Below are positions 785 to 63,883 of a stretch of DNA of 64,000 nucleotides, piece by piece (position 1 is the first letter of the stretch; each line of letters opens with the position of its first letter). Location of the stretch: contig NC_134850.1 in the NCBI RefSeq assembly GCF_965363235.1, forward strand, positions 34,507,102 to 34,571,101, written 5' to 3'. The notes beneath the pieces are model-generated. The model was given only the letters and a program-made list of their open reading frames with translations. It was not told where the DNA came from and did no database searches. Source of the DNA: Mytilus galloprovincialis (lineage: Eukaryota; Mollusca; Bivalvia; Mytilida; Mytilidae). Made by a program: the position numbers and the translations under genes.

Positions 785-3700
785 CTTTATAAATTCAGAA
801 GTCACAATCTTAAACACACAAAGTAGAAAATGTTCACTTGGTTTTGACAGTTCTTAGATTGCGCACCCATCAATTGAGTTAAACCACGCTTAAATCTTAA
901 TCGTCAACTAAAAGTTGTATACATATTGTAGATGTGGTTGTTTTGTTTTTCATTTTGTTAATTTGAAGACTGTTTTTATTTTGTATCTAATTTACCTAAG
1001 ACTTCAATTTGACGACAATGTTTTATATAAAATACACAAAGCAGTGTATATCGACATTATGTACTTTCCCTACAGATTTCAGTTCAGCTCATTTAAAGTT
1101 ACATCAACAAAATGATAATAAACATACAGTATCAGAGCGAGCGTATTAACCCTATGGTAATCAAAATATCGACGGATAATTTTTACGACACCAGATACCT
1201 ACGTTGACAATACATTTCTGGTTAGTGATGCTGGAGGCAATATCACTTGATAATTTAAAATTTAATATAAATAACGGACATATAAACGAAAGAGCACAAA
1301 TATCTTAGCCTAATAAAAAAGAAGGAATATGACCTTTGCTTCGAGAGATTCATGCCTAAATATTAAAGTATTTCCAAAACTGTAGAATAGCAGAGTTTGA
1401 AAAAACATTGTCCATATGTGTATACCGGTACCAACGTTTTGCTAGTAGGCTGGTGATTTCCTCGGTGACTTATTATTCCTTAAAGTATTATCAAATAATT
1501 GACTATTAAATTAAAGTAAAATACATATCATCATTGATGAGTCTTTACACGTGTGCATTTTTGTTGCTGTTTAATTCATTCGGACCTTGTATATATTCAA
1601 GTCTTGCAAAACTGAAGGCGAATGCTCTGCTATAAAATGTATTCATGCATGTACATTTAAGTATATACTTCAATTATCCTGGATAATTAGTTTGGCTTTC
1701 CATATTTTCTTAATTGTAACTGCGTTAATGTCATTTCTGCATATAGCTAGAATGTTAATATTTCAAATCATTTGTCAACAACAATCGAACTCTTACCTCC
1801 TCGTAGATGTATTCCAAAGATTTCTGACTAAACAGTTTTTTCATATCTTTTTTGGAAATAGTCCACTTTCCTTTTTTCAAAAGGTACATCGACAATGCAG
1901 TGCCATAGTCATTAGTGTATTTATCCTTAAATTAAGAGTTATATATCAATAAGTATCTATATGTCGAACTGACAAATCATAATTTAAAACTAATAAATGG
2001 TATACCGTTTTAAGAACAAATACATCCCAACTAATTTTTTTGTCTTTTCATCAGGCTTTGCGATATATACATAATGGCAATTATAAAACACAGGGATCTC
2101 GATTCCTACTTCCAATAAGACACGTGCACAATACAATAAGTGTCTTTACAACTTTACTTCCCGTTTCTTATAATTCAGGCAGCGACAAAGAATATGTCAA
2201 AAAAGTGAACACAATCATGACATTTGTAAACTCAAAAGTCATACTCCTCTTAGTATGTGGCTTGTAAAGTGTTTGCTTTTGTTTTATAAAGTATTGTGTT
2301 TTTGTTTTTTTTTAATCAATAACGCAACCTTGGAGAAATATAAAGACTGCTATAAATCGATAATTCGATGTTATGTCCGTCTTTCTCTTGTCTTCTCTAT
2401 TCCTATTTTCTGTAACTTTTTCAGGTAAAAATATATATGAATCGAATTATGTAAGTATGTGACTGTCCAAGGAGCATGTAATTCAGTAGTTTTCGTTTGT
2501 TAATGTGTTCTACTTATTTTTCGTTCCATTTATTGTACATGAAATAGGCCGTTAGTTTCCTCGTTTGAATGGTTTTACATTTGCCATTTCGGAACCTGTA
2601 TAGGTGACATGCAGTATGGGCTTTATATGTTATATTGTCGGGTTGGTGTCTCTTTGACACATTCCCCATTTTCATTCTCAATTTTATTTGCTCATTGTTG
2701 AAGGCCGTAAGGTGACCTACAGTTGTTAATGTATGTTTCAGTTTGTCTGCTTGAAGAGTTGTCTTATTGACATTCAAACCACATCAGTTTATTTAAATAA
2801 TCCCAAAAATGTTACGAACTTATGTTTATAATTTTATAAATCTTTTTAAAATACATAATTGGTATAACTTACAGCTTTTCTCTCTGTCGATGATCTTTCC
2901 TTAAAACACACTACAAATATCACATACAAACATTTCAATATCATAGATGAATAAAACTAGGTAATATGCAATGGCTGTAAAAAAAAACCTTCTGCTGTTA
3001 AAATAAATCAACGACTTTGGTTTTAAAGTATGATCAAATTATGCTTAATTTCTCTTTTTTTCTGCTTTTCAACGTGCTTATTATAATAAGTTTGAATGGA
3101 TTTTGTCTTAATTTTTTTCAAATTGTTTTCAAAATCGATATCAATGACCATTTTGAATTTTCGTTTTGTCTATAATAATTAATTCTGAACACATGGTTTC
3201 TGGACATTCGTGTCTAACAAAATATCCTTAATTTATTCGATATTTTAATTATCTATACTTTGTACATACCTCCGACGAGAATATGGGAAATTAGAATATC
3301 AAGGTCACAACGGATCTCGGATAGAAGTACAATGCCATCTGACGATGAATTCTTCTGTGTGCTTTTCTCTTTTATTTTTTTAACGCGCCAAGGCTTTGTA
3401 GAATCTGTTTTGTATTCTGTGACGACTGCATTGTTTTGGTCATCGCCGTCTGAAGGCCATAGTAAATTTACATCCTGTGTATGTTTCTGTGGCTGATAAA
3501 AACAGTTTGTATGTATAATGTAACGTAAAAAACCATTGCAGAGTTAACATATTCATACATTTTAACGTTTTTATAGGTGTTTTTTAGTAACGTTAAAATA
3601 ACAAAATCATTGTTATTATGCATATTTAGGGAAATTGTTTCATGATTCATATACACAAAATTAACAGATAACAAACAATTTAAATATACATCAATCTGCT

Positions 3701-18767: not shown

Positions 18768-18851
18768 TTAAACGTTAGTACTGGCAACAAAATATGTAAG
18801 TGCATAAAGAATTTGATTTGAACTCTGTGCTTCACCAGTTAATATTTGGTC
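18768..18851 (-). CDS. Gene B exon 36: terminal exon with stop
   Basis: 84 coding nt after acceptor tttcag, encoding DQILTGEAQSSNQILYALTY and FVASTNV, then TAA at 18770..18768. No clear polyadenylation signal could be chosen among the many AT-rich hexamers downstream. Confidence 0.68.
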   Translation of the reverse strand, partial: DQILTGEAQSSNQILYALTYFVASTNV

Positions 18852-21800
18852 CTGAAATATCAAAATAAAAATATGTGACAATGAACAATACGTTTATTGA
18901 AACATATGTTAGAACATTTGCACATCTTATAATTATAATTCTTGTGAATAGTTTTTTTTAATGTTTAATATCCAAATGTAGGTTCCTTTTGATGAAGGAT
19001 TATGACGTCGTATAGCGTATGGCGTTGTTAAATTGAACATAATGCATAAATCCTACAAAAATGGATGTTTGATCTGAAATATATCCACAACTTAACTGTG
19101 CAGAACAAAAAGATAATTTCAAAATGTTAATTATCAATATTCAATTAATTATTGACATCAATGCATTAAAACAAAAATACCGTCGAACAAGTTAATACGC
19201 CCGAACAATATGGCTTATGGCAGACAGTGAATTAGGTTTATTTAGGTTAAAATTATATTGCATTCAATGTTATAGGATTTAATAACTTATTTGCATTTAT
19301 TGTTCAAAAGTTACCGTTTGCAAATGTATATTTGTCGCTGTATCGATATCAATGAATGCATAGTTTCTTATGTTTGCTGCAATAGAATGAAATAAAATTA
19401 GTCAACATAATTTAACTTACTTCTAACATAATCATCTGATGACACAGACTGACTGTCAGAATCATTCTTATCCGACGATAAAAATCCAAATTGATAATCA
19501 TCGTCCTCATCTTCCGTTTGGTCTTCAAAATTCTCCAGAGTCTTGGCAATTTTTGATAACTGGAGTAAAAGAAAACACATATATTACATACAAAATTATC
19601 AGTTAAACAGCGAAATTATAATACCGAGTGATTTTTAAAACATGTTGCATGTAGACAAGCGGCCTATCGAAGTGATCAGGTCGTCATTAATAAGACACTT
19701 CATCCTCTGGTCTATGGTCTATACAAAACAAAACGCCAACAGTACCAACTTGTAAACTTTCATGTGTTTTCTGCATTTCCCTATCTGTAGACTGGGTGAA
19801 ACGTTTCAGACCTTTTGCATCGTCATTATGTTTGACGGAGTGACGTTACACTGCTGCTTAACCATTATGGAAAAAAAGTCGCTTACTAACCTAATTTAAA
19901 TTCGCAGAGTCTTCACGCAGTCCTGTTTGACCATCATAATTCTTAAAATGTTTAGGAAGTACGAAGTATAAGTATACTCCACAACATGTATGAAGCATTT
20001 ATTGAAAGATTAACGGTATTATTCAGTGTTATTTCATATCAGTAAAAAATTAGCTTCTCTTATTGGATAAAAAAGGGCCACATGACATTCAATATTCTTC
20101 AGTTATATATTTCATCGGTCATTAACAGAACAGACATACTAGAAAACCGGTCATAAACGGACTTGTTAACATGTTAATGCCCGGCGTGGTTTCTCTTGTA
20201 ATGACCAGTGGGGCGTGGTTTCTCTGTTCAGTGAGATATCCCCTTACTAACACATTTTCCTATTTAATTTTTTATTTAAGTTGAACTATCTACCATATGT
20301 TTTTGTAAACTACAAAATTATAGGAAACTTGATTTAGTGTTCATTTACTGAAAAATTGCACTTAAATGAATGGCAGTTACTTGTAGTTACATGTATTACT
20401 TCGACTAGTCTTCACTCTTTATAGAAACCGTACAATAACTCGATTTGGAATTTGTAAAAACAGGGTTCCTCCATGAAATAAACATAATAGTAACTGAAGA
20501 ACTGGTCGTAATCGTGATAAATAGACTACCCATAGGACAGTGGCATTGATCATGACTTCGCCTACAACATTATCACTGTCTAAGTCAATACCACTATACT
20601 GTGGGCAGTCCATTAATCACGATAATGACAAGTTGTTCAATAACTTTTATGCAATTTACAAGTAGGTTGTCTTTATATATACATGGTAAATGCAGAAATA
20701 AATATCTATATTATGTTTGAGTGAGGAATATCAAAACTTCATCAGTTAAAACAAATTTCATTTACGGAGGAAAACAACGATCAAGTATGTAAAGGGTTGA
20801 TTGCCGGATTTTTTTCGGAAATGCATTTTTTTTCGTGCACACTTTGTTGTGTAATTACATGTATGTATAACTAAATCATTTTTATAAAATAGTAGTATAC
20901 ATTGTCAAGTATTATATCAAATGTCAGAGTGTTATTACACTTAACGTTGATGTAAACACAATGTCAGATTAAGGGTGACATATTTTCCATTTCGAAATAG
21001 AAACATTTTTTCACATCACAGGATTGTGCATGTAACTACATCTATTATACTTAAAGTAGGTGTTATGCCATTTTTCCTTTAAAGAATCGGCTCCCTCGGT
21101 ATAGATCTTTACACAAAATGTCATTGTGCATTAACATATTTAATTAGAATTGTGATCACCTTGGCTTCCAATTTATTTGAATTAACTATCCAATGAACTT
21201 TTATGAATAATGTGGAGTCTCAAAAATCCTTAAAGGATTTTAGATGAGTAAACTTGCGTATGAAATATCAGACATGTATTAAACTACAAAATTGTCGACG
21301 GTCATATAACATTTGGGGTTCATCATTTAAATATAAACATTTTATATATATATGCGTTTGAACTGAATTAAAGATATATATATTATGAATATATTGCTAA
21401 CAAAAAATGCATGTATGTAAATATGTCTGAAATGTACTAAATTATAATCCTGTTACATTTGATAACTATGTTTCCATGTTGTCAAAATTAAAAAAAAAAT
21501 AATATTAAAAAATGAAATGTGTCAGTTGTTTTATCAAATAGATGGAATTTTATCCTTCAAAAAGTAGTATTTCTAAAACTATATTCAAACCATTATTGCG
21601 ATAAAACTAGCCCATATCTTATTTCGAATTCCTCAGTTGTTTTATCAATATGATTTGTTGATTCGTAAGGGATTCATACAATTTTGACAACATCACGAAC
21701 ATGTCATATGTCAGTTTTTTACCCTCAAATGTATGCCTGTCAAATATTTTCTTTATAATAAATAAATTGTACGCCTTTCAATATGTTGTGATACAATGTC

Positions 21801-24800
21801 AACTTACGTTGATAAAGAATTGTGCGCTAAAAACAGGAAAAAAATAGTTTTCAGAAACTACTAATTTGCTACACATGTGTTAATAATAAAATAGAGGTTG
21901 TGATAAAGACTTTGCGTTGTCAGTTTATTTTCGATTTATGAGTTTGACTGTCCCTTTGGTATCTTTCGTCCCTCTTTTAAAATGTATAAAATATCTATAC
22001 TTTTTAGAAATAAATGCCTGCTAACGTTCTCGGTTGGTGAAAATAAAAGGTTGTCATATACTTTTTTTTTAAATATTGACTTTCATTTAGTTTATGTATA
22101 CATTTAGAAGAAAAAAGACCAAACGAAAAATAGAATGTAATACCAACCATTGTCTTTATTCCTTTCAACTTTTTATCCACATGCTGCATGTTTTCCATTA
22201 TCTGAAAGAAGAGAAAACTATTGTGGCATATTTTTCTTTTGCTGATAACTTCCATTTAATTTTTTTCAAAGAATATTGTTTAAAGATTTAAATGAAATAT
22301 TTCGTCACATTAACACATAAGTTTGTAGTTACTGTCATTCATACGGGAATCGTAACATCCATTGAAATTACCAAACTGTATTTATGGAAGTAGACCTTAA
22401 ACAGAAAAATAACTCTAAAATCATCAGTACGTTAATGTCACCTGTTTTCATCAATATATACTAAGCTTCTCGGTTGCATAGATTATTTTAATCTGTTTAA
22501 GGTAAATGCTTTAAATTCATTGATGAAATTACAAAAGCATCATTGAATTAAAGAGTTATCTCCCTGAACCATTGTCTGCCCCCTTAATACAAATTATGAT
22601 CAGTATAGAGAAGGCAAATTATTAATACTGTATGTTTTAAATTATTTGCAGCGATATACCCTGATTGTGTTGAAGCGATTGAAAACACAGACTGATTAAT
22701 CAATTTAAGCATATTAATGTAATAATTTTGATTTGGTATAAATTAAAATTTAGAATTCAAGAGTGCTATCATACAAAGGCAATTGTTACAAAGTATCAAG
22801 CAGTACCATCGCAAACTATTATAAAATGCAACCGACAATTTTCCGATTTGTTTTAGTAGAATTTGTACTTTATCATACAAACATCAAAAAATAGTTAAGT
22901 TCTTAAATAATCCTTGCATTGATTTTATATTACAATATATGTTTTCAAACAAGATATGAATAATAAAAATCTAAAAAAATAATTATTTTATGACGTATCT
23001 GTTCCAGTAACCACATGTTCATATTGCAAAATATTAAAAATAGAAAGGTGAGATTCTCAACCAATTTACATACATGGCATGATACTAAGAGATCCAAGTA
23101 ATTATACACCGTGTGATGAACAAGAATATGTTTAGTTTACCTTCTCATTTTGTTTGCCATTTTTTTCGTTCTGTTTGTCTTGTTTTTCGTTCTGTTTGTC
23201 TTGTTTTTTGCTGTTTGTATCCATTTGTCTCTGCAACATCTGTACGATAGAAATTGTCAAGTTTACTTTTTAAAATGTTATTGGATTTAGAACATATGCA
23301 CAATCTTTTACAATTGAATTGCGTCACACAATGACATAAAAATTGAAGTTGAAGTAGAAAAAAATAAAAAGCTTGGAGTCAACTTGCATGCTAAAATGAT
23401 AAATAATGAAAAATAAACAACAAAACTAAAAAGCATGTAAACGCTACTGTTGACATATCTCATCATCCTCATAGCTCGCCTTAGTTATATCAACAGTCAC
23501 ATTGTCTTCATTTAGATATAAGAAGATGTGGTGTTTGTGTTTGTACTGTTTATGTCTAGAAGCTATCTGTTATTGATGCTGATGAGTGAAGCTTATTTGA
23601 ACTGTTATTGTTCTGTATGTCATGAAGTTGAACCCTTTTCTAAGCTTATCGGAGGGTTTGGCTCTATCAAATATGTTTAACCCGAGACAGTCTGTATGTT
23701 TGATTTTAAAGTCAGGAACCTATATTTCTGTTCATCATATTTAATATTCGTTCGCTTATTTTAATACACCTCAGACCTTTGATTTTCTTGTTTGAATTGT
23801 TTTACATTAAGAATTGTCAATATCTTTTCTAAAAAAGCTTTCTATCAGTTCATAAATATAACAGTATACATATCAGTTTAAAACATGGCTAAGATTATAC
23901 ATATCAGTTTAAAACATGGCTAAGATTATACATTGGATATATATCATAGTCCTAAAAAGAGTTGTGCTATTTAATCTAACATTTTGTGATAATTAATCTA
24001 CATAAATTGTCCTCAAGAACGTTTTTTTTTTTGTAAACACCGAGTGAAGAATGAAGGGTTTGGTTGAAAACTTTGAGCAAAGCCTATATCCAATATTGGT
24101 TTTCAAAATATCGTTCTCTCTTTATCTCTCCTTCTTTGTTTATAGATAAAGGAAGATGTGGTATGAGTGCCAATGACACAACTCTCATTCCAAGTCACAA
24201 TTTATATAAATGAACCATTATAGGTCAAGGTTCTGTCTTCAACACGGAGCCTAGGCTCACACCAAACAGCAAACTATAAAGGGTTCCAAAATTACTAGTG
24301 TAAAACCATTCAAACAGTTAAACCAACGATTCAATCTATATAAAAAACGAGAAACGAGAAACATTTATGAACCACATCAACAAACGACAACTACGGAATC
24401 AGATGTCCGACATAGGACATGTGCAAACAATTGCAGCGGGATCAAACGTTTTATGGTACCAAACCTTCTCCCGTTTCTAAAACGCTAACAGTAGCATAAC
24501 ATCACAACATAGAAATACACACTATAAAATATCAATTGAAATGACTTAACTCAATCAAAAAACGCAGTGACACAAATAAATTATAATTCATGTTTACCGT
24601 AATTCTGTCAACTTCAGAAAGGTCTATTTCCCTGAAAATGAATGTTATAGTAATCAGTCCTTCGTGATATCATCATAAACGTATCAAATTGGAACACTAA
24701 AAGAAATTCCCGGTTTGCTTGTAAAATTATGGAAATTCGACTATAGTTCCATAAATCAACGAGTGTATTTAATCTTAAGTGTATTTAATCTTAAAAAGGA

Positions 24801-57800: not shown

Positions 57801-60800
57801 TCTCATTTTGTTTTATATTCAATATTTTTTTGTCAATTTTATTTGAAATTCGTGTATCGTTTCTTTTGTTGACTAGTATATTAGGCACAATCCTTCCCGT
57901 TGTGGGTTTAGTGTCACACTGTCATAAAGTTACAGAAATGTTTATTTCTGATGCAAAGACCTTACAAGTGAAACAATAATAAAGCAAAAGTATACCATCT
58001 TTAATGATAAACTACAAAGTATCTATTGGAGGAAAATTATAAGTTTGGGAAAAAGAAGTACTTCGATGTAATTATGTAGACAAACATGTATACTAGCAGT
58101 GTTATAGTAAGCTATACAAGTCGCCGTAGTGAAAACATGTGAAAAAAAATCTATAACGAGAAACAAACAACTCTATTTATTATGAAACAATAACTGAACA
58201 AAAACATAGTAAATTAATTTAAGATCAAATCAAAACGAAAATAAAATTAAAATAAAAACTATGTGTTCTACTAATAACTGTTTAGGAAGGCCATCACATT
58301 ATTAATGTGATCATTATCATATGCTCAAAAAGCTTAAGTTAAACATGCTATTAAGAAGTATGTTACATTTGTAAAATAACAGTACCTGATGGTCCATTGT
58401 CAAACAGTCGTAAACAATTACTAGACAAACTGTAATCCTCTATATTACCATTATCCCATTGTACTTTTACATCTAGTTTAAGTGTTACCATGTCGAGTTT
58501 TGACATGCGCTTGCTGTGTTTGTTTTTTACTGATTCTTCTTGTGCTGTTATATTGTATTTCCCTTTGAAATCTCCAACCTAATGCAAATAGAAAGTATTG
58601 CATATGGTTTATTTTGGAATTATCAGTATTGGTGAATTCATCTTGACAGACAATTTATCCTATGTCTTTCAAAACAAAAACTATCAAATGATTCGTCGTT
58701 AACAATGTAACATAATAGAGGCAAACGATACTTCAGAAATATTTAATCTTATTCATCATAAACGAACTGACAACATCACAGAACAACAAAAATAAAAACC
58801 ATACCAAACAACATATAAAAGTTAAGTAAACACAAATCAGAAAAAAAACACAAGAACCCAAATAAATCCAGAGAGTATGTCAGGTGTTCTCCAAGATTCA
58901 GTTATTATAATAGTTGCTTTATCAGTATAAATTAGACCAATCCTAAATATAATAGTTCATGCCACGTCACTTTCAATTTTAAAGTAAAATCGGAGACGTT
59001 CTCTGTTGACCACTTACTTCAACAAAACCATAAACATACATATAGTTTCTTTTATATCCGGGAAAATAAAAGCTATATTACAAGAAACAATTTGCTTGAT
59101 TAAATCTTACATGTGTAACTGTTCCTAAATATCCTAGTCCACCATCACACACGTTATCGTCATCCCATCCAGGACCTCTTACAACTCTTGCGCCTTTCTG
59201 TAAATTTTCTGCATTACAAATTACACAACAAAGTATTACATGTGTTCAAAAACATGTTAAACCCCGCTGCATTTTTTCGCCTGTCCCAAATCAGGAGCCT
59301 TTGGTCTTTGTTAGCTTGTATGATGTTGACATTACGTTTCTTGTGTTAAGTATGACGTCCAATATCACTAAACTAGTATACATGTTTGTACAGGGGGCAC
59401 ATGAAGCACACCTCCGTTTGCGGGATATTCTCGCTGAATTGAAGACCCATTGATGGCCTTCGGCTGTTGTTTACATTTTTGTCGGGTTGTTTTTGTCTTT
59501 GATACATTCCCCGTAGCCATTGTCAACTTTATATTCACGTGGTAATAAAGATATGCATCATGACCTTTCTATAATGGCCATATCGTATCATCCTAATATC
59601 CTGTCATAACCCAAGACGTTATTCGAAAAAAGAATATGTATTAATCATTTTATAATATACCAATTGTTTTTCATATGACAATGTATGAGGCAAATAATAC
59701 GTATAAATAACGTTTTATGAGCCGATGCAAATTCATGTTATATTTCGAGACAATAGATATAAGAGGATGTGATATGAGACAACTATCCATCACAGTCATA
59801 ATATGCGAAAGCAAACAAACAATAATAGGTCAAAGTACGGTCTTCAATATTGAGCATTGGCTCACATCGAATAGTATATTAGGTTGATCTGTATATCTTT
59901 CAACTTTTTCAACTGTTACAAGAAATGTATATTTGTGATTCAAACTTTTTTTTTAATTTGAAGCGGCTGATTTTCAAAATCCGGGAAACTTGTATTCTGA
60001 TTTTTCGTTTTAAATAAAACTACACGGAAACGCTTTGCCAACGTCATCAATAAGGCAGTATATGATACGTGACTGTAAATTACGTATGATTTGTTTCACC
60101 AATTAAATTCTAAACTTGCAGCATTTATAAACGGAATACCATCTGTTATGTCTTGTTGTGTCATTTGTTATTTGCAAACGGAAGCCGCCGTAAAATACTG
60201 AGTCACAGTAGTGGATTATTTGCACGCACGAGACGCCCCTGATACGGGTTATCAGATTTTGTATGTATCAATGGCTGCCTTACTTCTGCGCGTTACATAT
60301 GTGACAAAAACTATTATGTTAATGGCAAGTATCTAAAAAATGTATATTTAATCTGAGAAACTATATCTGAAATGAAAACAAAAGTAATCAGATTTTAAAA
60401 TTGTAAGCTCAAGTATTTTCGCCAAGACCTGTCTCGTTCAGGTGAACACAGTTTTTAAATGTTCGGTAATAGGTTTTGAACTAGACATGTACATGTATAT
60501 CGGAAAGAACGACAAGATGGAATGGCTTTAATGACGACATAAATTTCGTTTAGGTGAAAACAGTTTTCAAATGTTCGGTAATGGGTTTTGAACTAGACAT
60601 ATACATTTACAAAAAATGTATATTGGAAAGAACGACAAGATGGAATGGCTTTAATGACGACAGAAAATACGATCGAATGCTTCACTTCTGAAAAAAATGT
60701 GTTTCTAATAGGTAAAAAAGATAAACCGACTAATACAAATGATTTTGAGATGTGCCCTTTCATTACTGATTTTTTCACAAGTGTTAAATATGGTGTCTCT

Positions 60801-63800
60801 TTTGGTTTTATATTTATTCAACTAATGTCCACATATTCTATCATACATACTGTTTATGCATGCTCAACAGTATTAAAAAGATAGAGTAAAAATATAAAAA
60901 AAGGAAATTTAAGCAAGGGAATCAACCATGTATATGCAATAACTGTGACTACTTCTTATGATTTAAATTTACTCACCAACTGTTGCAATAGGCAAATGTT
61001 GTTCGTAATACATAGGGCCTTTTGTTGCTACTGTAAATTTTAAATCACACTGTCCATTCCTACCTACGCGATAGCTTCCTTCGAAATTGTCGTGCCAGTG
61101 TACTTTTGCATCAGACCTGTATGTTTCAATAGCGTTTTCAAGGAATTTTTTTACTCGCCCTGAAAAGACACATCCGGTGTGTTTGTAAATCAAATACAGT
61201 TAGCTCTCATTGTCTCGAACTCGATTGACTCGAAATTTTGGATGAGTCGAAATTTTCACGTGGTCCCGAACTTGTTCCATATAAATGTATGTAATTCGAC
61301 TCCTGATGAGTGAAAATTGAATGAGTTGAAATTTTGGTTGAGTTGAACTAAATTTACGATCCCAAGGTTAACAAAAGCATTCAAAATTCATTATTTTCTC
61401 GGACTAATACACATATGTCAAAACATGACCTTCGGCAATTAAATGGATTGAAGAGTTAATCTGACAATACACGTGTAATTAAATTTCCAGTCACTGACCA
61501 CTGTATTGATTTATGACATGCTATTTCCACGAGTGTTTACCTAAGATTATCTTTTATAGAATTTTTATAAATAATTAGTGAAACATTGTTAATGTTCATG
61601 AAAAAGTATTTAAAATGTTTACAAAACAATTAATTGTGATTTACACTGATGAGCTTGGGTGTGTATAAAGTAAGGATTATGACTTCTGTTGATGATCACC
61701 TAAAAACCACTCAATCGGCGTTTCTATTCCAGTTGTATTTACTTTTGAAAAGAAAGATTGAGATAAAACAAAATGAAGAGGAATCTAAATTTTCTAAAGT
61801 CTCTTGTATCCGAGAATAAACAATTTTGTCAACTATAAACGACCTGAATAACGAAACTATTGATTGGAAATTACTCTCTCGGATAAAAGCCATAGGAGAA
61901 AATTGTACCTGAAACAATTGAATATTAAGTAAAAATAATGTTATTATAATAATGAAAGACCATGATATACAAATACATCGATCTGATACCAGAATATCGA
62001 CCCCCTTCCCATATTCTCCCGGATTTATTTTAGCTTTACCAAGCTAAGCAAGAGTTGTGTCCCTTGTTCTGTCAAACTTCCGGTTTTCGTTTGAGTCAAA
62101 CTACGTGTATCTCGAAATATTTCTCTGGTCCGGCTGACTTCGAGATAACGAGAGTCGACTGTATATTGCAACCGGAACATGTTTCACTATGCTAAGATAA
62201 TACTAGATGATTTTACATAATGACGATCGTTTACCTTTATGTTTATGGTCCCCATACAGGTAGACAATTGCATTTGGTTGAATTCCTAAGGCATGTGTGA
62301 TTTTCTGATTTTCTCGTGGTGGCATTTGTTCACTAAAATTAAATATAAAGTATCTCTTTTAACCGTATATAGAATACAAAAGAAATTATTATTTATTGTG
62401 CAAAAATCCGATAGAAAAACATGGCAGAGTCATATATGCCTTTTTTTCTATGAAAAAAAACCATGGCAAATGTTTAGAATTTGCTAATGCTACATTATAT
62501 CTGTTAAGAAAACCCTTTTGCTAACAGTCTGTGTTATGCTTTAAGCATTTATATATACGAAGTAAATGGCCGATAAATTGCTACATAAGGAGATGTTGAG
62601 AAAAAACAAAAGAAAGGGAATCTCTAAAATGTCCTTTCAGACTATAATATGTTTATAAAAGTTTCACTGGTAAACATTATTTTTAATGTTGCCAGCTGAA
62701 GATTACAAACACATTATTTAAAGAAACTAGTAATATATTTTAACTTAATGTTCTGCAATAAACATGTTCTCTTATTAGATATTTCACCACTAGGTGACTA
62801 TTTTGTAAAAAAACTAAGTAAATCAAAAGGATACCACAGATACAGTTAAGTTTGTCTAACAAAAAGTTACAAAAATATCGAACGCTAAGGAAAGTTCATA
62901 TCGGAGAGTCCCTTTTCAAATGGCAGAATCAAAAGCTCAAACAGATAAAACGAACATAAAGCAGTAGTCATAATTCATATATCTGACTAGGTTTAGCCAT
63001 GCTTTATACATTGTGAATTAAACCTAGTTGTATAACTAGCTAAAGCTCTCACTAAATAGGAGAGTTGAATAAATGTTCAATTTCAGGAAAAGGTGTAGGA
63101 ATTCAGACAGCTGGAGAAAACATCATAGAAAATGGGAATAAATTAACCGTTACACAATATCAACCAGGAAAACAAAAAGAAAACATCGGACTGGGTACAG
63201 TCATGATCTAAAGAGATATAGAATTATCGCTTAAATCTTGTTTCATGACTAGCGCATATTCAACTTGTTTATAGATTCGTTATATTGGCAAATGAAGTTG
63301 AGCTATTCAAACAGATTATATGTTAATCAATGTTAAATAATAATAAGTGTGCCCCATTTGTATACACATACAGGTAAACAACATTACTGAGATCAAAATT
63401 CACACAATATTTGCGTACTACGATCAACAGAACTGATAAAACTAGTTCAGCCTTTATAAACACATAGAATTACAAAAAAAAAGAAATGGTAAGACTCGTG
63501 TGGCTGTATGTGTTTTTTGCCATTGGTTATTTGTTTGCCCTTCTTTTGCTGGCAAATGGCTTTGTTGCAATTTGTTTCCGTTTCTATTTCCGACTTATCG
63601 TAGTTTGATGTTTTCTTTCTTCTTTTTTTTTTGTTTTTAACAAATACCTACTTTTTTTCATATTCAAATGTGTATGCTATCGTGTATAAGTTCGGGATAT
63701 TATCAACTAACCCTTTTGAATCAGTACTGAGAATTCTTTTGAATATATGTGAACGATCATGCTCATTGTTCATGTAGCAGTCGGTACAAAGATCATAATC

Positions 63801-63883
63801 CCCACAGATTTTACACTTCCATCTAATTCCTCGTAAAGGGTACACGTCGCATCCATCGCATTTGACATAGGGATGAATGACAC
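18768..63883 (-). CDS. Gene B: ZZ/MIB-TRPM-like channel, 36-exon model, 5' partial
   Basis: Gene-level entry for the spliced model; each exon is listed separately. The first visible exon begins with the last two bases of a split glycine codon, so the true start lies beyond the window. The stop is TAA at 18770..18768. The assembled fragment is about 1,530 residues: ZZ finger (about 1-58), MIB/HERC2-like module (90-248), second ZZ (249-305), second MIB/HERC2-like module (306-405), TRPM-type cytoplasmic region (405-995), S1-S6 channel core (about 1000-1280), TRP-box-like helix (1280-1340), coiled coil and acidic tail. All junctions keep frame. The channel call rests on S1-S6 order, the pore Phe-Gly-Glu and the S6 motif LLLNLLIAM. 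It would act as a membrane cation channel; the ligase-type N-terminal modules suggest protein binding. The alternative, two adjacent genes, is disfavoured by phase continuity and by the duplicate gene A. Confidence 0.68.
19315..19376 (-). CDS. Gene B exon 35: penultimate small exon
   Basis: 62 nt, acceptor ttgcag and donor gtaact. Encodes NIRNYAFIDIDTATNIHLQT. Joining exon 34 straight to the last exon gives an early stop; this exon restores frame. Confidence 0.7.
19421..19559 (-). CDS. Gene B exon 34: coiled coil, second half, and acidic tail
   Basis: 139 nt, acceptor ctccag and donor gtaagt. Encodes LSKIAKTLENFEDQ, an acidic run (EDEDDD), then a serine-rich stretch SDSQSVSSDDYVR, a likely phosphorylation-prone tail. 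Confidence 0.8.
19560..22147. other. Gene B intron, AT-rich
   Basis: A 2.6-kb intron splitting the coiled coil. A fragment of a dispersed repeat (about 21900-21985, with the GTTTGACTGTCCCTTTGGTAT stretch also seen at 8160-8195) is the only recognisable content. Confidence 0.5.
22148..22201 (-). CDS. Gene B exon 33: C-terminal coiled coil, first half
   Basis: 54 nt, acceptor tttcag. The donor gttggt (not gtatta four bases on) keeps phase 0 and gives an unbroken heptad across the junction: VDKKLKGIKTM followed by LSKIAKTLENF places V, L, I, L, I, L, F at a/d positions. TRPM channels use a C-terminal coiled coil for tetramer assembly. Confidence 0.72.
23141..23239 (-). CDS. Gene B exon 32: Lys/Gln-rich KQDKQNE repeats
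   Basis: 99 nt, phase 0-0, acceptor gtacag and donor gtaaac. Encodes MLQRQMDTNSK followed by two exact KQDKQNE units and a third diverged one. Strongly charged, probably helical. Confidence 0.7.
23865..23930. repeat. Two-copy tandem repeat, 31-bp unit
   Basis: ATACATATCAGTTTAAAACA then TGGCTAAGATT occurs twice in a row without mismatch. Confidence 0.8.
24140..24590 (+). repeat. Dispersed repeat (GGTATGAGTGCCAATGACAC family)
   Basis: Contains GATGTGGTATGAGTGCCAAT, AAAGGGTTCCAAAATTACTA, AACGAGAAACGAGAAACATT and TAAAACGCTAACAG. Inverted and shorter copies at 42740-42930, a fragment at 15005-15070 and a diverged copy at 59750-59900. Confidence 0.58.
24598..24631 (-). CDS. Gene B exon 31: micro-exon EIDLSEVDRIT
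   Basis: 34 nt, acceptor ttttcag and donor gtaaac. Only one of its three frames is open, and that frame needs two bases from upstream, as exon 30 supplies. Probably the lead-in to the C-terminal coiled coil. Confidence 0.6.
25165..25414 (-). mobile_element. tRNA-derived SINE
   Basis: The minus strand begins GGGCCTCTGTGGCCGAGTGG then TCTAAG, a tRNA-like head with an A box, and a B box-like TTTCGAACCTCG near 25355-25367. The body carries CTCCGGGCACTCCAGCTTTC and CTGGCCGCCATGAAATAG, shared with the copy at 6.9-7.0 kb. Not a functional tRNA, because it does not fold over its full length. Confidence 0.72.
25680..26000 (-). repeat. Dispersed repeat, inverted copy of the 8.0-kb family
   Basis: Plus strand shows GAACAGTCAAACTCACAGAT and GACAACGCCATGGCTAGCAA, complementary to 8100-8200. 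The end AGATCCTGCTACACAAGTGG mirrors the start of the 8.0-kb copy. Confidence 0.62.
26094..26117. repeat. (AT)n microsatellite
   Basis: About eleven TA units in the gene B intron upstream of exon 31. Confidence 0.85.
26640..26845 (+). repeat. Degenerate copy of the hammerhead-bearing repeat
   Basis: Shares GGATATTCTTATCCCAAGCA, GCCGTATTTGGCACAACTTT and GGGCGTCACTTGTAAG with the 27-kb units, but the ribozyme core is destroyed. Confidence 0.6.
27261..27302 (+). ncRNA. Hammerhead ribozyme motif, core mutated (CAGATGA)
   Basis: Stem I CGTCA/TGGCG, core CAGATGA (consensus CTGATGA, so U4 is changed), stem II GTCT/AGAC with loop TATGT, GAAA, minimal stem III ACGCGCGT, cleavage triplet GTC. Probably inactive because of the core change. 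Confidence 0.65.
27618..27659 (+). ncRNA. Hammerhead ribozyme motif, GAAA changed to TAAA
   Basis: Stem I CGTCA/TGGCG, intact CTGATGA, stem II GTCT/AGAC, but TAAA in place of GAAA. The rest is as in the 40.4-kb copy. Probably inactive. Confidence 0.65.
27700..28100 (+). repeat. Dispersed repeat (TTCGTTTCTGTGTGTT / TCTTATATTTG family) with long poly-T
   Basis: Two overlapping partial copies of a sequence also at 30945-31175 and 55005-55230 and inverted at 29330-29640. Landmarks: GTCGTTGTTCTTCTCTTATA, CATTTCCCTCAGTTCCAGAT and CGATATACTACTGTTGCCTT. Contains a run of more than 20 T near 28040. Confidence 0.55.
28200..28249 (-). CDS. Gene B exon 30: small linker exon
   Basis: 50 nt, acceptor ttgaag and donor gtaaat. 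Encodes LKTTKEAEGNGALKAK and leaves GG, which the G of the next exon completes as Gly. It resolves the phase gap between exons 29 and 31. Confidence 0.55.
28534..28783 (-). CDS. Gene B exon 29: post-S6 TRP helix region
   Basis: 250 nt, acceptor tttcag. Encodes SDTFQKVHKESEFYWAQIQT, equivalent to the TRPM post-S6 motif (F-x-x-V ... W-x-x-Q), then a hydrophobic helix (LQLLVLPATIVHAIFWF) and basic residues. Two donors are possible: gtaata, five codons' worth of frame apart from a coding join, and gttaga at 28533. Only gttaga keeps frame with the next exons. Confidence 0.85.
29330..29640 (-). repeat. Dispersed repeat, inverted copy of the 27.7-28.1-kb family
   Basis: Plus strand reads AAGGCAACAGTAGTATACCG, AACTGAGGGAAACGCTTTAA and AAGAGGAGAACAACGACACA, complementary to the 27.9-28.0-kb copy. 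Fills part of the intron between S6 and the post-S6 exon. Confidence 0.6.
29989..30148 (-). CDS. Gene B exon 28: outer pore and S6
   Basis: 160 nt, acceptor ttcag and donor gtaaat. Begins with the outer-pore cysteines (PHC and VPRCP), the conserved TRPM disulphide position, then YLKALYGLIAVILLLNLLIA and MYR. The LLLNLLIAM S6 motif is the strongest single TRPM indicator in the window. Confidence 0.92.
30945..31175 (+). repeat. Dispersed repeat, copy of the 27.7-28.1-kb family
   Basis: Contains AGTGTCCTGTACCAATTCAG, TCCTCTTATAGTTGACGTGT and GTGTACTACTTTTGCCTTTA, in the gene B intron between pore and S6 exons. Confidence 0.55.
31412..31586 (-). CDS. Gene B exon 27: S5 and pore loop
   Basis: 175 nt, acceptor ttgcag and donor gtaagt. 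Encodes ARDTVSFMIIMAVIMMCYN (S5), a short turret and NGYWMLFGELNLDSVT. The FGE triplet sits where TRPM1/3/6/7 have YGE and TRPM2/8 have FGQ, so a selectivity-filter glutamate is retained. The filter region is otherwise diverged. Confidence 0.88.
32593..32838 (-). CDS. Gene B exon 26: S3, S4 and S4-S5 linker start
   Basis: 246 nt, phase 0-0, acceptor ttaag and donor gtatgg. Contains WNQLDWLSIIVYASGM (TRPM S3 signature WN-x-x-D), a CxxxxC loop, FIFLSIRILNLFCMSAMLG (S4) and GPKLVMIRKM (TRPM LGPKI-x-x-I-x-x-M before S5). Confidence 0.9.
34616..34747 (-). CDS. Gene B exon 25: S2 helix and S2-S3 approach
   Basis: 132 nt, phase 0-0. Encodes FGFLTLNTAYAYMLLFDYSD, then YFIIVWMVSFFVDETKQ. This matches TRPM S2 (FLxLFAYVLL-x-D) and the following helix ending in E-x-x-Q. 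Confidence 0.88.
35090..35295 (-). repeat. Dispersed repeat, inverted copy of the 8.0-kb family
   Basis: Shows GGGAAAGTCAAACTCATAGA, GACAATGCCATGGCTACAAA and AGGTGCTCCTGAAGAATAAG, complementary to the 8.0-kb copy. Confidence 0.6.
35325..35615 (+). mobile_element. tRNA-derived SINE, second family
   Basis: Head GAGCCATAGTGTAGTTGTTA then GCGCATCGGACTTCTAAC with B box GCTTCGATCCCC, followed by a conserved body (TGGCTGACTCGTATAAAG, GAGCCATATCTCTTGCACGT). The A box and B box are spaced as in a tRNA. Inserted in the gene B intron between S1-S2 linker and S2. Confidence 0.7.
35726..35774 (-). CDS. Gene B exon 24: S1-S2 linker FYKKYNLPFMKVSLQM
   Basis: 49 nt, acceptor ttcag and donor gtatga. Encodes RFYKKYNLPFMKVSLQM; TRPM channels have FY-x-x-P-x-x-K-F just before S2. 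A micro-exon, but phase and family pattern both fit. Confidence 0.82.
36150..36210. repeat. GAAC/GGAC-rich simple repeat
   Basis: Imperfect (GGAC)n and (GAAC)n run; it produces the arginine/serine-rich open frames seen on the minus strand. Confidence 0.75.
36639..36724 (-). CDS. Gene B exon 23: S1 transmembrane helix
   Basis: 86 nt, acceptor tctag and donor gtgagt. Encodes VRFFGLAVVHIIVLPLLMIS, a hydrophobic helix matching TRPM S1 with its conserved proline. A 1,036-bp TIR element begins 52 bp upstream of the acceptor. Confidence 0.85.
36777..37812. mobile_element. TA-flanked TIR element (Tc1/mariner-like MITE) full of palindromes
   Basis: Perfect 27-bp terminal inverted repeats beginning CAGTTGGGTGCAGACC, flanked by TA on both sides (36775-36776 and 37813-37814), the target-site signature of the Tc1/mariner superfamily. 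1,036 bp with no transposase. Both arms carry about ten copies of a 16-18-bp near-palindrome of the form AGTAAACGnnCGTTTACT around an AT-rich centre. Inserted in the gene B intron just before S1. Confidence 0.82.
38172..38220 (-). repeat. Hammerhead-like fragment, degenerate
   Basis: Minus strand reads CGCCACTGGTGAGTCTTTTG then TAAACGAAACGTGCGTC. Core CTGGTGA and unpaired stem I; a decayed fragment of the same family. Confidence 0.5.
38384..38702 (-). CDS. Gene B exon 22: charged insertion and pre-S1 motif
   Basis: Largest exon (319 nt), acceptor tcaaag and donor gttagt. An insertion with a perfect tandem KDVSAKI repeat is followed by GEHINHAGRLLVNHGYIEDA and then VRNILNEMWYGTEK. The last block corresponds to the TRPM pre-S1 motif (LN-x-x-W-Y/W-G) that joins the cytoplasmic repeats to the channel. 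Confidence 0.85.
39057..39160 (-). CDS. Gene B exon 21: helical segment
   Basis: 104 nt, acceptor ttcag and donor gtaatt. Encodes IRIRYILIGCVILEDE and a lysine-rich helix ending KEKLQRLKR. Consistent with the TRPM helical homology region before S1. Confidence 0.72.
39824..39939 (-). CDS. Gene B exon 20: LYALLKKQYWNGAQQLIETG repeat-like helix pair
   Basis: 116 nt, acceptor acacag and donor gtaagt. Encodes ELYGLILYALLKKQYWNG and AQQLIETGC. It matches the TRPM helical-repeat pattern in which a leucine-rich helix (LxWAVLL...) precedes a second helix with a tryptophan at the turn. Confidence 0.75.
40473..40514 (-). ncRNA. Intact-looking hammerhead ribozyme motif
   Basis: Read on the minus strand: CGTCA (stem I), CTGATGA, GTCT-TATGT-AGAC (stem II), GAAA, ACGCGCGT (very short stem III), cleavage site after GTC, then TGGCG pairing back to CGTCA (with one G-U). 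All conserved core positions are present. Hammerheads with such short stem III generally work better as dimers. Confidence 0.78.
40828..40869 (-). ncRNA. Hammerhead ribozyme motif, weakened stem I
   Basis: Core CTGATGA, stem II, GAAA and GTC are intact, but the 3' arm of stem I reads TGGGC instead of TGGCG, losing pairs. Confidence 0.68.
40976..41113 (-). CDS. Gene B exon 19: lysine-rich low-complexity linker
   Basis: 138 nt, acceptor tcaaag and donor gtaagt. Encodes VKKVDDSKDEDESAKASK, then KTKIFLNFKKDKPKKK. Low complexity; its place in the frame chain (two bases in, one out) supports it as an exon. Confidence 0.7.
41955..42039 (-). CDS. Gene B exon 18: DMTAEIKNGLWSYLQ
   Basis: 85 nt, acceptor taaag and donor gtatct; ends MAYKTPDFR plus one base. 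Gene A exon 784..724 ends LAYKLSEHP with the same one-base overhang. Confidence 0.75.
42240..42440 (+). repeat. Dispersed repeat, same family as 3836-4040
   Basis: Contains GTCATATTCCTGACTTGGTC and AGAGCTAGCTAAACCTCTCA, in a gene B intron. Confidence 0.58.
42725..42930 (-). repeat. Dispersed repeat, inverted copy of the 24.1-kb family
   Basis: Plus strand shows TTTCTCGTTTCTCGTTTTTT, AATGGTTTTACACTAGTAAT and CACACCACATCTTCCTATAT, complementary to 24140-24360. It accounts for the apparent plus-strand open frame there. Confidence 0.6.
42943..43071 (-). CDS. Gene B exon 17: ALSMYLLKEGKW block
   Basis: 129 nt, phase 0-0, acceptor tttcag and donor gtacga. Encodes NALSMYLLKEGKWRIPKE and SLEYIFEQ. 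Gene A exon 1925..1797 is also 129 nt, with ALSMYLLKKGKW and SLEYIYEE. This is one of the most conserved blocks between the paralogues. Confidence 0.85.
43743..43799 (-). CDS. Gene B exon 16: tentative 57-nt exon
   Basis: Acceptor atttag and donor gtatca enclose 57 nt in phase 0-0 coding KIEVKHIDDPVNENVFEVP. It can be included or skipped without changing frame. An open frame continues past the donor for seven codons to a TAA. No gene A counterpart was found, so it may be alternative or spurious. Confidence 0.45.
43815..44130 (-). repeat. Hammerhead-bearing repeat, single diverged copy
   Basis: Same family, in a gene B intron. The ribozyme segment (43839..43880) keeps CTGATGA, GAAA and GTC, but stem II is GTCT/AAAT and does not pair fully. 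Confidence 0.68.
44273..44310 (-). CDS. Gene B exon 15: small exon VSMVEGSIEKEIF
   Basis: 38 nt, acceptor tttgcag and donor gtaagt. It takes two bases to complete the codon left by exon 14 and ends in phase 0. Without it exon 14 cannot be joined in frame to the exons that follow. Confidence 0.6.
44629..44869 (-). CDS. Gene B exon 14: acidic cytoplasmic segment
   Basis: 241 nt, acceptor tcacag and donor gtatgg; the open frame runs only ten codons into the intron before a stop. Encodes KHSLDVSILTHQS, NPWSIK and a C-terminal LDALVCCLLIG. Gene A's exon 3492..3270 shares the HxxDV ... PW ... LLxGG layout. Confidence 0.8.
45528..45640 (-). CDS. Gene B exon 13: VLPVVISLRNGG block
   Basis: 113 nt, acceptor aatag and donor gtaaag. 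The phase left by exon 12 selects the frame VSGEAVLPVVISLRNGGM ... KIPIIRLK, not the longer open frame that overlaps it. Gene A (4270..4155) reads EEVLPIIISLKRN in the same phase. It resembles the TRPM strand-turn-strand that ends the SLOG-like domain (IPIV-x-V-x-x-GG). Confidence 0.78.
46211..46515 (-). repeat. Hammerhead-bearing repeat, single copy
   Basis: Starts AGTTATCAAAAGTACCAGGA and ends near CTGACTACTGGGCTGG. Same family as 40.4 kb, truncated to about 300 bp, in a gene B intron. Confidence 0.72.
46245..46286 (-). ncRNA. Intact-looking hammerhead ribozyme motif
   Basis: Identical over the 42-nt core to the 40473..40514 copy: stem I CGTCA/TGGCG, CTGATGA, stem II GTCT/AGAC, GAAA, ACGCGCGT and GTC cleavage triplet. 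Confidence 0.76.
46940..47036 (-). CDS. Gene B exon 12: charged helix and EDEIHYF motif
   Basis: 97 nt, acceptor tttcag and donor gtaact. Encodes ELVEKGFRKFERGD, an acidic stretch, then EDEIHYFLRMAK. Gene A keeps the EDEIHYF-x-RMA motif in exon 4882..4795. Confidence 0.82.
47583..47689 (-). CDS. Gene B exon 11: KTKLPCHVV block
   Basis: 107 nt, acceptor ttacag and donor gtattt. Encodes KTKLPCHVVGQKVLFHSG and HYKTEKDTVK. Gene A's exon 5179..5073 is also 107 nt and about two thirds identical, which indicates selection on the protein. Confidence 0.82.
48531..48699 (-). CDS. Gene B exon 10: conserved IWR...KPSLYLIF block
   Basis: 169 nt, acceptor ttatag and donor gttagt. Contains IWRTIQQVKK, KPSLYLIF and a C-terminal MEEVLDFA. 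The last two blocks are nearly identical in gene A exon 6062..5912. It occupies the place where TRPMs carry the first strand of their SLOG domain, but the glycine-rich loop is not seen. An acidic/lysine-rich insertion separates the two blocks. Confidence 0.78.
49118..49889 (+). mobile_element. Inverted-repeat-flanked Penelope-like remnant
   Basis: 59-bp inverted repeats at 49118-49176 and 49831-49889 differ at one position. Between them lies a decayed plus-strand reading frame with the zinc-knuckle-plus-GIY-YIG layout typical of Penelope-like elements: CRDSRCGACPYIHVGKE near 49320, then ENLIYCIKCHGCQEIYIGQT near 49420-49480. It has in-frame stops, so it is not functional. No reverse transcriptase is present. 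Confidence 0.65.
49318..49570 (+). pseudogene. GIY-YIG endonuclease fragment, Penelope-like
   Basis: CxxxxCxxC followed about 30 codons later by IYCIKCxGC and YIGQT, the catalytic start of the GIY-YIG fold. Stop codons interrupt it after NITC and after QTPKG, and the downstream part is frameshifted. Confidence 0.6.
50004..50059 (-). CDS. Gene B exon 9: start of TRPM-type cytoplasmic region
   Basis: 56 nt, acceptor tttgtag and donor gtaatc; encodes DSQGYFAVNFDLANQATKK. Gene A has a 56-nt counterpart at 7313..7258 with GYFEVN. Position and pattern resemble the strand that opens the TRPM homology region before the SLOG-type fold; this is inference. Confidence 0.75.
50450..51040 (+). pseudogene. 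Ty3/gypsy-type pol fragment (RNase H end and spacer)
   Basis: The plus strand reads DMEIQHRKVLLHTNADCLSR around 50530-50595, the RNase H C-terminal motif of Ty3/gypsy pol (QHR-x-G ... NADALSR). A frameshift at a run of nine A (50595-50603) leads into KKKCKQTNCLDCTEMKTD and a 140-codon frame ending at 51027. Integrase is not seen. Lies in a gene B intron, antisense to the gene. Confidence 0.62.
51740..52200. repeat. Direct duplication, ~355-bp spacing
   Basis: AAATATAAACTAAGATTAAG followed by GAACGAAAAxAGGTCGGAAT occurs at about 51755-51845 and again at 52100-52195. The two copies flank the second hammerhead-like motif (52010-52053), so this may be a tandem pair of a ribozyme-bearing unit, as at 27 and 40 kb. 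Confidence 0.6.
52010..52053 (+). ncRNA. Second hammerhead-like motif, different family
   Basis: Six-bp stem I GCATCA/TGGTGC, core CTGAAGA (consensus CTGATGA), stem II GACA/TGTC with loop TGTTT, GAAA, TGCGCA as short stem III, GTC-like ATC triplet. The layout is the same as the 40-kb family but the sequence differs; the U7-to-A change probably weakens it. Confidence 0.5.
53011..53202 (-). CDS. Gene B exon 8: second MIB/HERC2-like segment
   Basis: 192 nt, acceptor tttttag and donor gtaaat. Encodes SEVEVMWFKD followed by a strand-rich stretch ending FFYYYDHLPALGRG, a diverged counterpart of exon 3. Gene A has an exon at the same position (9108..8944) with the same entry and exit phases. This shows that exon 8 and the channel-type exons after it belong to one transcription unit. 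Confidence 0.78.
53762..54175. repeat. Direct repeat, two copies ~310 bp apart
   Basis: TAATATAGGACAATGxTGT and CCAATAATTxAxAAGTTCC landmarks occur at 53762-53860 and 54069-54175; gene B intron, function unknown. Confidence 0.62.
54240..56277. other. Gene B intron, mostly unique AT-rich sequence
   Basis: Apart from repeat copies at 55005-55230 and 55630-55835, nothing is recognisable in this part of the 3.1-kb intron between exons 8 and 7. Confidence 0.45.
55630..55835 (-). repeat. Dispersed repeat, same family, inverted
   Basis: Minus strand of CCAAGTCAGGAATATTATAG and of TTACTAGGGACTTTCCGTTT matches the family; in the 3.1-kb gene B intron. Confidence 0.52.
56278..56384 (-). CDS. Gene B exon 7: linker after ZZ 2
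   Basis: 107 nt, acceptor ttttag and donor gtaatt. Begins DNMPTPREHPRS, paralogous to exon 2. Phase 0 after the acceptor would hit a stop; the frame used takes one base to complete Arg from exon 6. Confidence 0.75.
56671..56842 (-). CDS. Gene B exon 6: ZZ zinc finger 2
   Basis: 172 nt. Second intact ZZ finger: CDCC, then RGIRWKCKTC, LCNIC, and EHDLGH with both histidines. The donor is gttaga rather than the nearer gtaagg, because only that choice keeps exon 7 open and it mirrors exon 1's gttagt. All eight predicted zinc ligands are present. Confidence 0.85.
58386..58578 (-). CDS. Gene B exon 5: end of MIB/HERC2 domain
   Basis: 193 nt, acceptor ttag and donor gtactg. After a lysine-rich insertion it encodes VKVQWDNGNIEDYSLSSNCL, the second half of a MIB/HERC2 domain (V-x-WDNG ... 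Y). The domain is longer than usual because of the charged insertion. It leaves one base, completed by GA of exon 6 as Gly. Confidence 0.82.
59111..59208 (-). CDS. Gene B exon 4: start of MIB/HERC2 domain
   Basis: 98 nt, acceptor tgcag and donor gtaaga. Encodes KGARVVRGPGWDDDNVCDGG then LGYLGTVTH, the classic opening of a MIB/HERC2 domain (G-x-RVVRGPxW ... DGG ... G-x-V). It ends in phase 0 and continues directly into exon 5. Confidence 0.85.
60436..60663. repeat. Two-copy tandem repeat, ~115-bp unit
   Basis: GTTCGGTAATxGGTTTTGAA and GAAAGAACGACAAGATGGAA, then TGGCTTTAATGACGACA, occur twice. The second copy has gained a small inverted repeat (ATACATTTACAAAAAATGTAT). Confidence 0.8.
60977..61159 (-). 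CDS. Gene B exon 3: MIB/HERC2-like strand-rich segment
   Basis: 183 nt with acceptor ttttcag and donor gtgagt. It carries VHWHDNFEGSYRVGRNGQCD, matching the MIB/HERC2 pattern of a tryptophan strand followed by YRVG, a short turn and DLK. It ends with one base that joins exon 4 to make Glu. Exon 8 is a diverged copy (VEVMW ... YYYDHLP against VHWHD ... YYEQHLP). Confidence 0.75.
61197..62161. mobile_element. pogo/Tigger-like MITE filling a gene B intron
   Basis: Ends CAGTTAGCTCTCATTGTCTCGAA and (minus strand) CAGTCGACTCTCGTTATCTCGAA, the pogo/Tigger-type terminal repeat, with TA on both sides. 965 bp; no transposase reading frame survives. The host intron is 1,075 bp, so the element is about 90% of it. 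Confidence 0.78.
62235..62332 (-). CDS. Gene B exon 2: linker between ZZ 1 and MIB-like module
   Basis: 98 nt encoding a linker with MPPREN near its start, after acceptor tttag and before donor gtaaac. Its T completes the glycine codon left by exon 1. Exon 7 is its counterpart after the second ZZ, with MPTPREH at the same place. Confidence 0.75.
62850..63060 (+). repeat. Dispersed repeat, same family, diverged
   Basis: Carries AAATGGCAGAATCAAAAGCT and TAACTAGCTAAAGCTCTCAC; lies between gene B exons 2 and 1. Confidence 0.52.
63712..63883 (-). CDS. Gene B exon 1 (visible): ZZ zinc finger 1
   Basis: Encodes a complete ZZ-type zinc finger: CDGC, CKIC, LCTDC and the pair in EHDRSH, with the RGIRWKCK stretch typical of the mind bomb and HERC2 ZZ class. 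Acceptor atag and donor gttagt; it enters with two bases and leaves two, 172 nt. Exon 6 has the same length and phases and codes for the second ZZ finger. ZZ fingers bind peptides such as histone tails or degrons; the ligand here is unknown. Confidence 0.85.

Follow-up and report, generated by a model that had tools for sequence, protein, structure and literature searches.

A predicted TRPM-type channel with tandem Mind bomb MZM units at its N-terminus in Mytilus galloprovincialis

Does this locus encode a single protein in which ZZ and MIB/HERC2 modules precede a TRPM-type ion channel, and of what kind are these modules? The question goes back to a sequence-only reading of the window, by which we mean the whole stretch of 64,000 nucleotides of Mytilus galloprovincialis DNA that was analysed. 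That reading had described a chain of 36 minus-strand exons ending at 18768. In-frame joining with GT-AG ends was borne out, whereas the number of exons was reduced to 34 and the gene was found to end with a stop codon at 18832.

Gene model and N-terminal modules

The spliced window model comprises 34 minus-strand exons (63883..18832, here E1 to E34), which were chosen by hand and checked against relatives, and encodes 1,481 residues up to the stop codon. All 33 junctions display GT-AG ends and compatible phases. Since the exons were picked partly by phase compatibility, phase is not counted as proof, and collinear homology provides the independent proof. A tblastn search with the M. edulis protein P0002 matched 24 window exons in order, and the model is 91.7% identical to P0002 over 1,131 columns, 89.6% identical to M. 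galloprovincialis P0035 over 346 columns, and collinear with M. edulis P0003 (1,602 residues; 68% over 1,454 columns). In a single alignment, P0003 from residue 138 onward matches the model from its first residue through window residue 1440. The 5' end of the gene lies beyond the window; P0003 starts 137 residues ahead of the model, which suggests that a leader and a further MIB-like part are encoded upstream. Several exons have weak acceptor scores. Automatic gene prediction with generic splice tables produced poor chains, in which copies of the second repeat family described below were taken for exons, and an Rfam scan of the window, which has a G+C content of 31%, gave no match.

By sequence, the N-terminal modules are two tandem MZM units of the Mind bomb type (MIB_HERC2-ZZ-MIB_HERC2) without ankyrins or RING. 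Exons E1 to E8 follow each other in the order ZZ, MIB, MIB, ZZ, MIB, which together with the upstream part gives two complete units. In unit 1, whose first MIB_HERC2 lies beyond the window, E1 (63712..63883) encodes ZZ finger 1, E2 (62235..62332) a linker placed by phase and by 27 of 30 residues identical to P0035, and E3 (60977..61159) the second MIB_HERC2 (Pfam 2.7e-05, below cut-off; P0003 residues 227-286). Unit 2 starts with a MIB_HERC2 divided between E4 (59111..59208; Pfam 4.2e-04, below cut-off) and E5 (58386..58578; P0003 residues 321-387), continues with ZZ finger 2 in E6 (56671..56842) and a linker in E7 (56278..56384; homology to P0002 and P0003, spliced model), and ends, as does the MZM region, with the second MIB_HERC2-like part in E8 (53011..53190), where 57 of 60 residues are identical to P0035 and 46 of 46 to P0002. 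MIB_HERC2 scores in the raw window remain below the Pfam cut-off because the domain is split by exons; in the relative P0003 the whole E4-E5 domain passes (residues 293-373). Both the two intact ZZ fingers (63883-63712 and 56842-56671; Pfam ZZ 1.4e-14, two stretches) and the MIB/HERC2 motifs at 59.2-58.4 kb, as noticed by the sequence-only reading, were thus recovered, and additional MIB-like exons are located at 62332-60977 and 56384-53011. The modules that it had listed are present, not as loose pieces but as two tandem Mind bomb MZM units.

The two units appear as duplicates of one another, window residues 220-402 aligning with residues 106-289 of P0003 (37%, 193 columns, 1e-25), and in M. 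trossulus P0021 Pfam detects ZZ twice and MIB_HERC2 three times. Among PDB sequences, P0035 matches MIB1 best (4.4e-29). Residues 165-396 of the family profile A2, which also matches TRPM3 (7e-52), align in one stretch with residues 9-231 of human MIB1 (6.1e-44). Structure models were those of the relatives P0021 and P0002 (mean pLDDT 59.0 and 62.7). A Foldseek search with the AlphaFold model of P0021, which is weak in the MZM part (mostly below pLDDT 75), returned the MIB1 MZM-REP structures 4xi6 and 4xi7 as the top two. In comparison with the Mind bomb 1/2 E3 ligases (4xi6, 4xi7), the MIB_HERC2-ZZ-MIB_HERC2 order is shared. The mussel protein differs in having two units followed by a channel, and neither Mib repeats nor ankyrins nor RING were found by Pfam in seven fused relatives (P0002, P0003, P0006, P0009, P0010, P0017, and P0021). 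The earlier suggestion that the N-terminus recruits ubiquitin machinery therefore finds no support.

ZZ finger 1 is closest to the ZZ domain of HERC2 (8.8e-15), for which crystal structures with SUMO1 and histone H3 tails exist, and ZZ finger 2 is closest to MIB1 (9.2e-14). In both fingers the C/H zinc ligands are retained, together with the Asp of CD..C and the two Asp of the D-x-D that precedes the fifth cysteine. According to PMC6098011, Asp129 and Asp149 of p62 hold the free amino group and Asp147 holds the first peptide bond, while the four-residue set including Asn132 is described there as not kept in other ZZ proteins. Alignment of ZZ 1 with p62 and HERC2, and of ZZ 2 with HERC2, reveals that the positions of Asp129/147/149 are kept in both mussel fingers, which by sequence are predicted to be of the N-terminus-binding type. 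Asn132 is replaced by Asp in ZZ 1 and by Arg in ZZ 2, and MIB1 has N at the position of the second Asp of the mussel fingers. The likeness to the ZZ domains of HERC2 and p62 hence consists in the proximity of ZZ 1 to HERC2 and in the N-terminus-pocket Asp kept in both fingers; the mussel protein differs by the replacement of Asn132 and by the embedding of each ZZ in an MZM.

The channel part

Judged from sequence, the channel is assigned to the TRPM family by its membrane part. Since profile A3 contained frog TRPM6, which inflates its scores, profile A4 was used as sequence evidence; it includes no TRPM from outside bivalves and matches TRPM3 at 2.5e-52, the best 60 of 100 PDB rows being all TRPM. 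For the channel structure model, which was built from alignment A3 (including frog TRPM6), all 50 structure matches listed were TRPM as well. Pfam Ion_trans was detected in five of the seven relatives of the first scan (not in P0024 and P0017), and in addition in P0002 and P0013 but not in P0020.

The channel part begins with E9 (50004..50059; 17 of 19 residues identical to P0002) and E10 (48531..48699), which encodes the N-terminal cytosolic domain at the place of SLOG. E11 (47583..47689), E12 (46940..47036), E13 (45528..45640), E14 (44629..44869), E15 (44273..44310), and E18 (40976..41113) were placed by the spliced model, whereas homology contributed in addition to E16 (42943..43071), E17 (41955..42039), E19 (39824..39939), which by position covers the melastatin homology region, and E21 (38384..38702), the region before S1; between the latter two, E20 (39057..39160) is identical to P0002 in 34 of 34 residues. 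E22 (36639..36724) encodes a pre-S1 hydrophobic segment and E23 (35726..35774) the start of S1, both from the spliced model.

The TRPM core proposed by the sequence-only reading was recovered at S1-S2 (E24, 34747-34616), S3-S4 (E25, 32838-32593), S5 and pore with FGEL (E26, 31586-31412; 57 of 58 residues identical to P0002), and the pore loop and S6 with LLLNLLIAMY (E27, 30148-29989; 52 of 53). The pore GE, the pore-loop cysteine, the LLLNLLIA-like S6 and the TRP region align with TRPM3, and E-x2-Q in S2 (E24) and N-x2-D in S3 (E25) align with TRPM2. Downstream, the spliced model places the TRP helix region in E28 (28527..28783), followed by E29 (28200..28281; 27 of 27 residues identical to P0003) and E30 (24598..24631). 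A C-terminal helix at the coiled-coil position is predicted for E31 (23141..23239) and E32 (22148..22201) by the structure model of P0002 (helix 1015-1077, pLDDT about 56-71). The window model ends shortly thereafter with E33 (19421..19559) and the last exon E34 (18832..18851), which contains the stop codon TGA.

As to SLOG, PF18139 was not detected by Pfam in the relatives scanned, hhalign of A5 against frog TRPM6 gave no credible match at this position with profiles that are thin, and five of the 50 structure matches listed reach model residues 79-89, with an rmsd of 11.8-26.4. PF23317 is listed for many relatives and for frog TRPM6. No Pfam match to a C-terminal NUDT9-H or alpha-kinase domain was obtained in P0002, P0003, P0006, P0009, P0010, and P0013. 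Placement in the alpha or beta clade of TRPM gave conflicting results, with the single-sequence search favouring TRPM2 and the profile favouring TRPM3. Compared with TRPM channels of known structure (Nematostella TRPM2, TRPM3, and TRPM8; PDB 6co7, 9n1g, 8bdc), the mussel protein shares the membrane part, the pore, S6, the TRP region and the structure matches; it differs by the two added N-terminal MZM units and by the lack of NUDT9-H or kinase in the relatives scanned, and SLOG was not detected by sequence. Like the 'chanzymes' TRPM2, TRPM6, and TRPM7, it adds a functional domain to a TRPM core, but here the addition is N-terminal and of a binding type rather than an enzyme, and a C-terminal enzyme was not found.

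Possible role of the MZM units

With moderate confidence, we read the locus as a single gene for a tetrameric cation channel that would be gated or positioned by peptide or partner binding at its MZM units. The protein would run from two tandem MZM docking units through a diverged TRPM-type cytosolic part and six transmembrane helices with a TRPM-like pore to the TRP helix region and the C-terminal helix, and four subunits would place eight MZM units on the cytosolic side. These units may bind a peptide or partner, either an N-box-like segment or, via the ZZ fingers, a free N-terminus; binding would then gate the channel or bring it to its partner, and would thereby replace the regulation by ADP-ribose or an enzyme that occurs in some other TRPM channels. 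A ligase part of its own was not found in the MZM-TRPM protein. The sequence-only reading had proposed that the N-terminus senses peptides. This is plausible, given that the MIB1 MZM binds the N-box of the Notch ligands Jagged1 and Delta (PMC11887331) and that both ZZ fingers keep the aspartates with which p62 holds a free N-terminus (PMC6098011).

That binding gates the channel, rather than only tethering it, is a tentative proposal to which we give a little less than an even chance. Since some paralogs lack the MZM yet have an open channel frame, the MZM may be a separable control unit. The same models (P0013, P0020, and perhaps P0019), which keep a long open channel frame, would also be compatible with units that tether only and leave gating unaffected, fixing the channel near a membrane partner such as a Notch-ligand-like protein; the binding of MIB1 MZM to membrane-protein tails, reported in PMC11887331, points in the same direction, and we regard pure tethering as possible but somewhat unlikely.

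If true, the fusion would place a receptor-like docking module in front of a TRPM-type channel, and would provide a third way to add function to the TRPM core besides NUDT9-H and kinase domains. Gating of such a channel by a peptide or partner in the cytosol thereby becomes a testable possibility. In agreement with the sequence-only reading, which knew of no described TRPM with ZZ/MIB modules, no description of the MZM-TRPM architecture was found in the openly licensed PMC literature, among the matches listed. A survey of TRPM evolution published in 2026 treats the melastatin, cysteine-rich, channel, NUDT9-H, and kinase domains, and the molluscs in its species table are Pecten and Octopus; its main text contains none of the terms 'mind bomb', 'HERC2', 'ZZ-type', 'zinc finger' and 'Mytilus' (PMC13143021). 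The first three terms are likewise absent from the available portions of scallop and oyster TRP surveys (PMC8539334, PMC8004665). The sequences of the relatives are already public, filed for instance as 'uncharacterized protein' or 'TRPM1-like', and the fused P0001 is named 'MIB'. The family bears on the reported oyster TRPM expansion, for which 21 'TRPM2' copies are given for Crassostrea gigas in PMC8004665, a set in which MZM remains may be looked for. It is a doubtful, clearly speculative extension that bivalves possess an expanded family of cation channels gated directly by proteins or peptides via grafted Mind bomb docking units. Such channels might perhaps be integrated baits in innate defence or act in cell-surface signalling, with a Notch-ligand-type tail or an exposed N-terminus as ligand.

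The join between MZM and channel, and related copies

MZM and channel parts are joined across intron 8 (50060..53010; 2,951 bases), where E8, ending at 53011, is in phase with E9, starting at 50059, by itself a 1-in-3 event. The fusion itself, as put forward by the sequence-only reading, is well supported by related gene models. Relatives were searched with a 1,391-residue version of the model lacking E15-E17 and E34, and, in a further search, with short fragments. Because the 42 proteins from both searches were found with the fused model, shares among them are not a census: in 16 a single chain runs from the last MZM part to the N-terminus of the channel, 12 contain the channel only and four the MZM only, while the others are P0015 (ZZ and channel), P0024 (channel and decayed MZM), and eight proteins that do not belong to the family, among them a beetle MIB2. 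After merging of the isoforms of LOC127712112, the 16 fused proteins represent 14 gene models from five Mytilus species, and in M. edulis P0002 itself the chain continues from the end of the MZM to the channel. A short link, LP..G[RKQ] followed after 3-4 residues by G[YH], is common to 14 of the 16; in P0001 and P0037 exons are skipped at the join. Gnomon isoforms such as X1-X27 presumably rest on RNA reads. Among the nine proteins (P0034-P0042) found in a short-fragment search for cDNA pieces, on contigs of at least 51,819 bases throughout, none was transcript-like; P0034 crosses the join. P0008, a cDNA-like record of 4,043 bases, begins after it.

Further evidence comes from a leader resembling EIQ..P.V...LS.YSTFHGY. 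It precedes the ZZ/MIB part in P0001, P0003, P0009, P0010, P0012, P0017, P0021, P0025, and P0042, and a similar leader precedes the MZM-less channel in P0013 and P0039, with some 60 residues in between, and in P0020, with about 10. When the 18 leader pairs across both groups were compared with 1,000 shuffles, 10 beat all of them and two were matched by one; the remaining six are weak, with 11 to 144 of the 1,000 shuffles equally good. In a tree of 22 rows the MZM changes at least two times, and the MZM-less rows stand beside P0016, which keeps part of the MZM. No single branch separates these rows from the others, as would be expected if the MZM was lost; the direction of change is read from a tree with a midpoint root, four unlabelled family rows, a perhaps truncated P0019 and two long branches that meet. 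The tree leaves out the isoforms P0011 and P0014, the partial P0007, P0021, P0034, and P0037-P0041, the MZM-only P0025, P0035, P0036, and P0042, the first half of P0001, and P0026-P0033, which lie outside the family. On these grounds a single gene with a fused product is very probable.

The database models P0035 (M. galloprovincialis) and P0036 (M. coruscus) end by read-through of the E8 donor, and in the window the frame after E8 is open for 20 residues. Such tails would fit a locus making both forms, the fused channel and, via early polyadenylation in intron 8, a shorter MZM-only protein that possibly competes for ligand. Beyond the donor, however, identity falls from 57/60 to 13/20 in P0035 and from 48/60 to 10/17 in P0036, so that the tails look like intron; being poorly conserved, they may be annotation errors, and production of both forms is considered unlikely.

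The same models, stopping just past E8, could instead reflect two neighbouring genes merged by gene prediction, one for the MZM alone, which would end after E8, and a separate TRPM-like one with its start near E9. P0025 and P0042, which have the MZM without the channel, and the 12 of 42 channel-only models, several of which are perhaps merely truncated, agree with this, as do four AATAAA and three ATTAAA in intron 8, although AATAAA may be common by chance at 31% G+C. The intron-like tails argue against two genes, and so does the occurrence of a similar leader before the MZM and before the MZM-less channel. Moreover, the same link recurs in models from five Mytilus species, whose identity to the window ranges from about 40 to 92%, and, in M. 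edulis as well as in M. californianus, on two different chromosome-size contigs. A pair of separate genes is thus very improbable. That the locus is a decaying pseudogene copy, as might be suspected of a tandem family with module content varying from model to model, is scarcely credible: all 34 exons are open and uninterrupted by stops or frame breaks, the product is 91.7% identical to M. edulis P0002 (1,131 columns), and both the ZZ zinc ligands and the pore motif are present.

Next to the fused gene, a tandem paralog (copy 2) with approximate limits 69..10222 on the minus strand was recognised by homology and runs off the window. A probable ATG exon near 10222-10181 (14-residue match, E 0.65) is followed by a leader exon at 9448-9361 and an exon at 9108-8944. 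Homologs of E9 to E14 lie at about 7313-7258, at 6062-5913, 5179-5073, 4882-4795, and 4268-4155, and at about 3490-3270, those of E16 and E17 at 1925-1794 and 811-728, and a further stretch at 131-69. No MZM was seen between the leader and the E9 homolog. Copy 2 is thus of the MZM-less kind, and its nearest relatives are M. galloprovincialis P0039 and M. californianus P0013. Its donor at 8944 and an intron phase ahead of the E9 homolog that equals that of the fused gene were assigned by reading of the frames; together with the leader, this copy likewise favours a single fused gene. P0001 and P0018 are database models that apparently merge two neighbouring family members.

A profile-type protein search with alignment A1 returned only frog TRPM6 and P0024 of Saccostrea cucullata. 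The latter aligns in the same order and keeps the channel part; from its decayed ZZ-like stretch the second pair of cysteines is missing, as are the histidines. Its MZM is seen only in the multiple alignment: P0024 gave no Pfam family and no BLAST match to MZM segments.

Intron 8 contains on the plus strand (50440-51027) an open frame of 195 residues starting with HTDHASLKWL, which has no Pfam match and which we take to resemble a decayed element of the Ty3/gypsy type at its RNase H end. Two interspersed repeat families were also observed. Members of the first lie within introns on both strands at 26.6-27.7, 40.4-40.9, 43.8-44.1, and 46.2-46.6 kb, the pieces being mostly 60-90% alike at the protein level, and those of the second at 7.9-8.2, 21.9-22.1, 25.7-26.0, and 35.0-35.3 kb.
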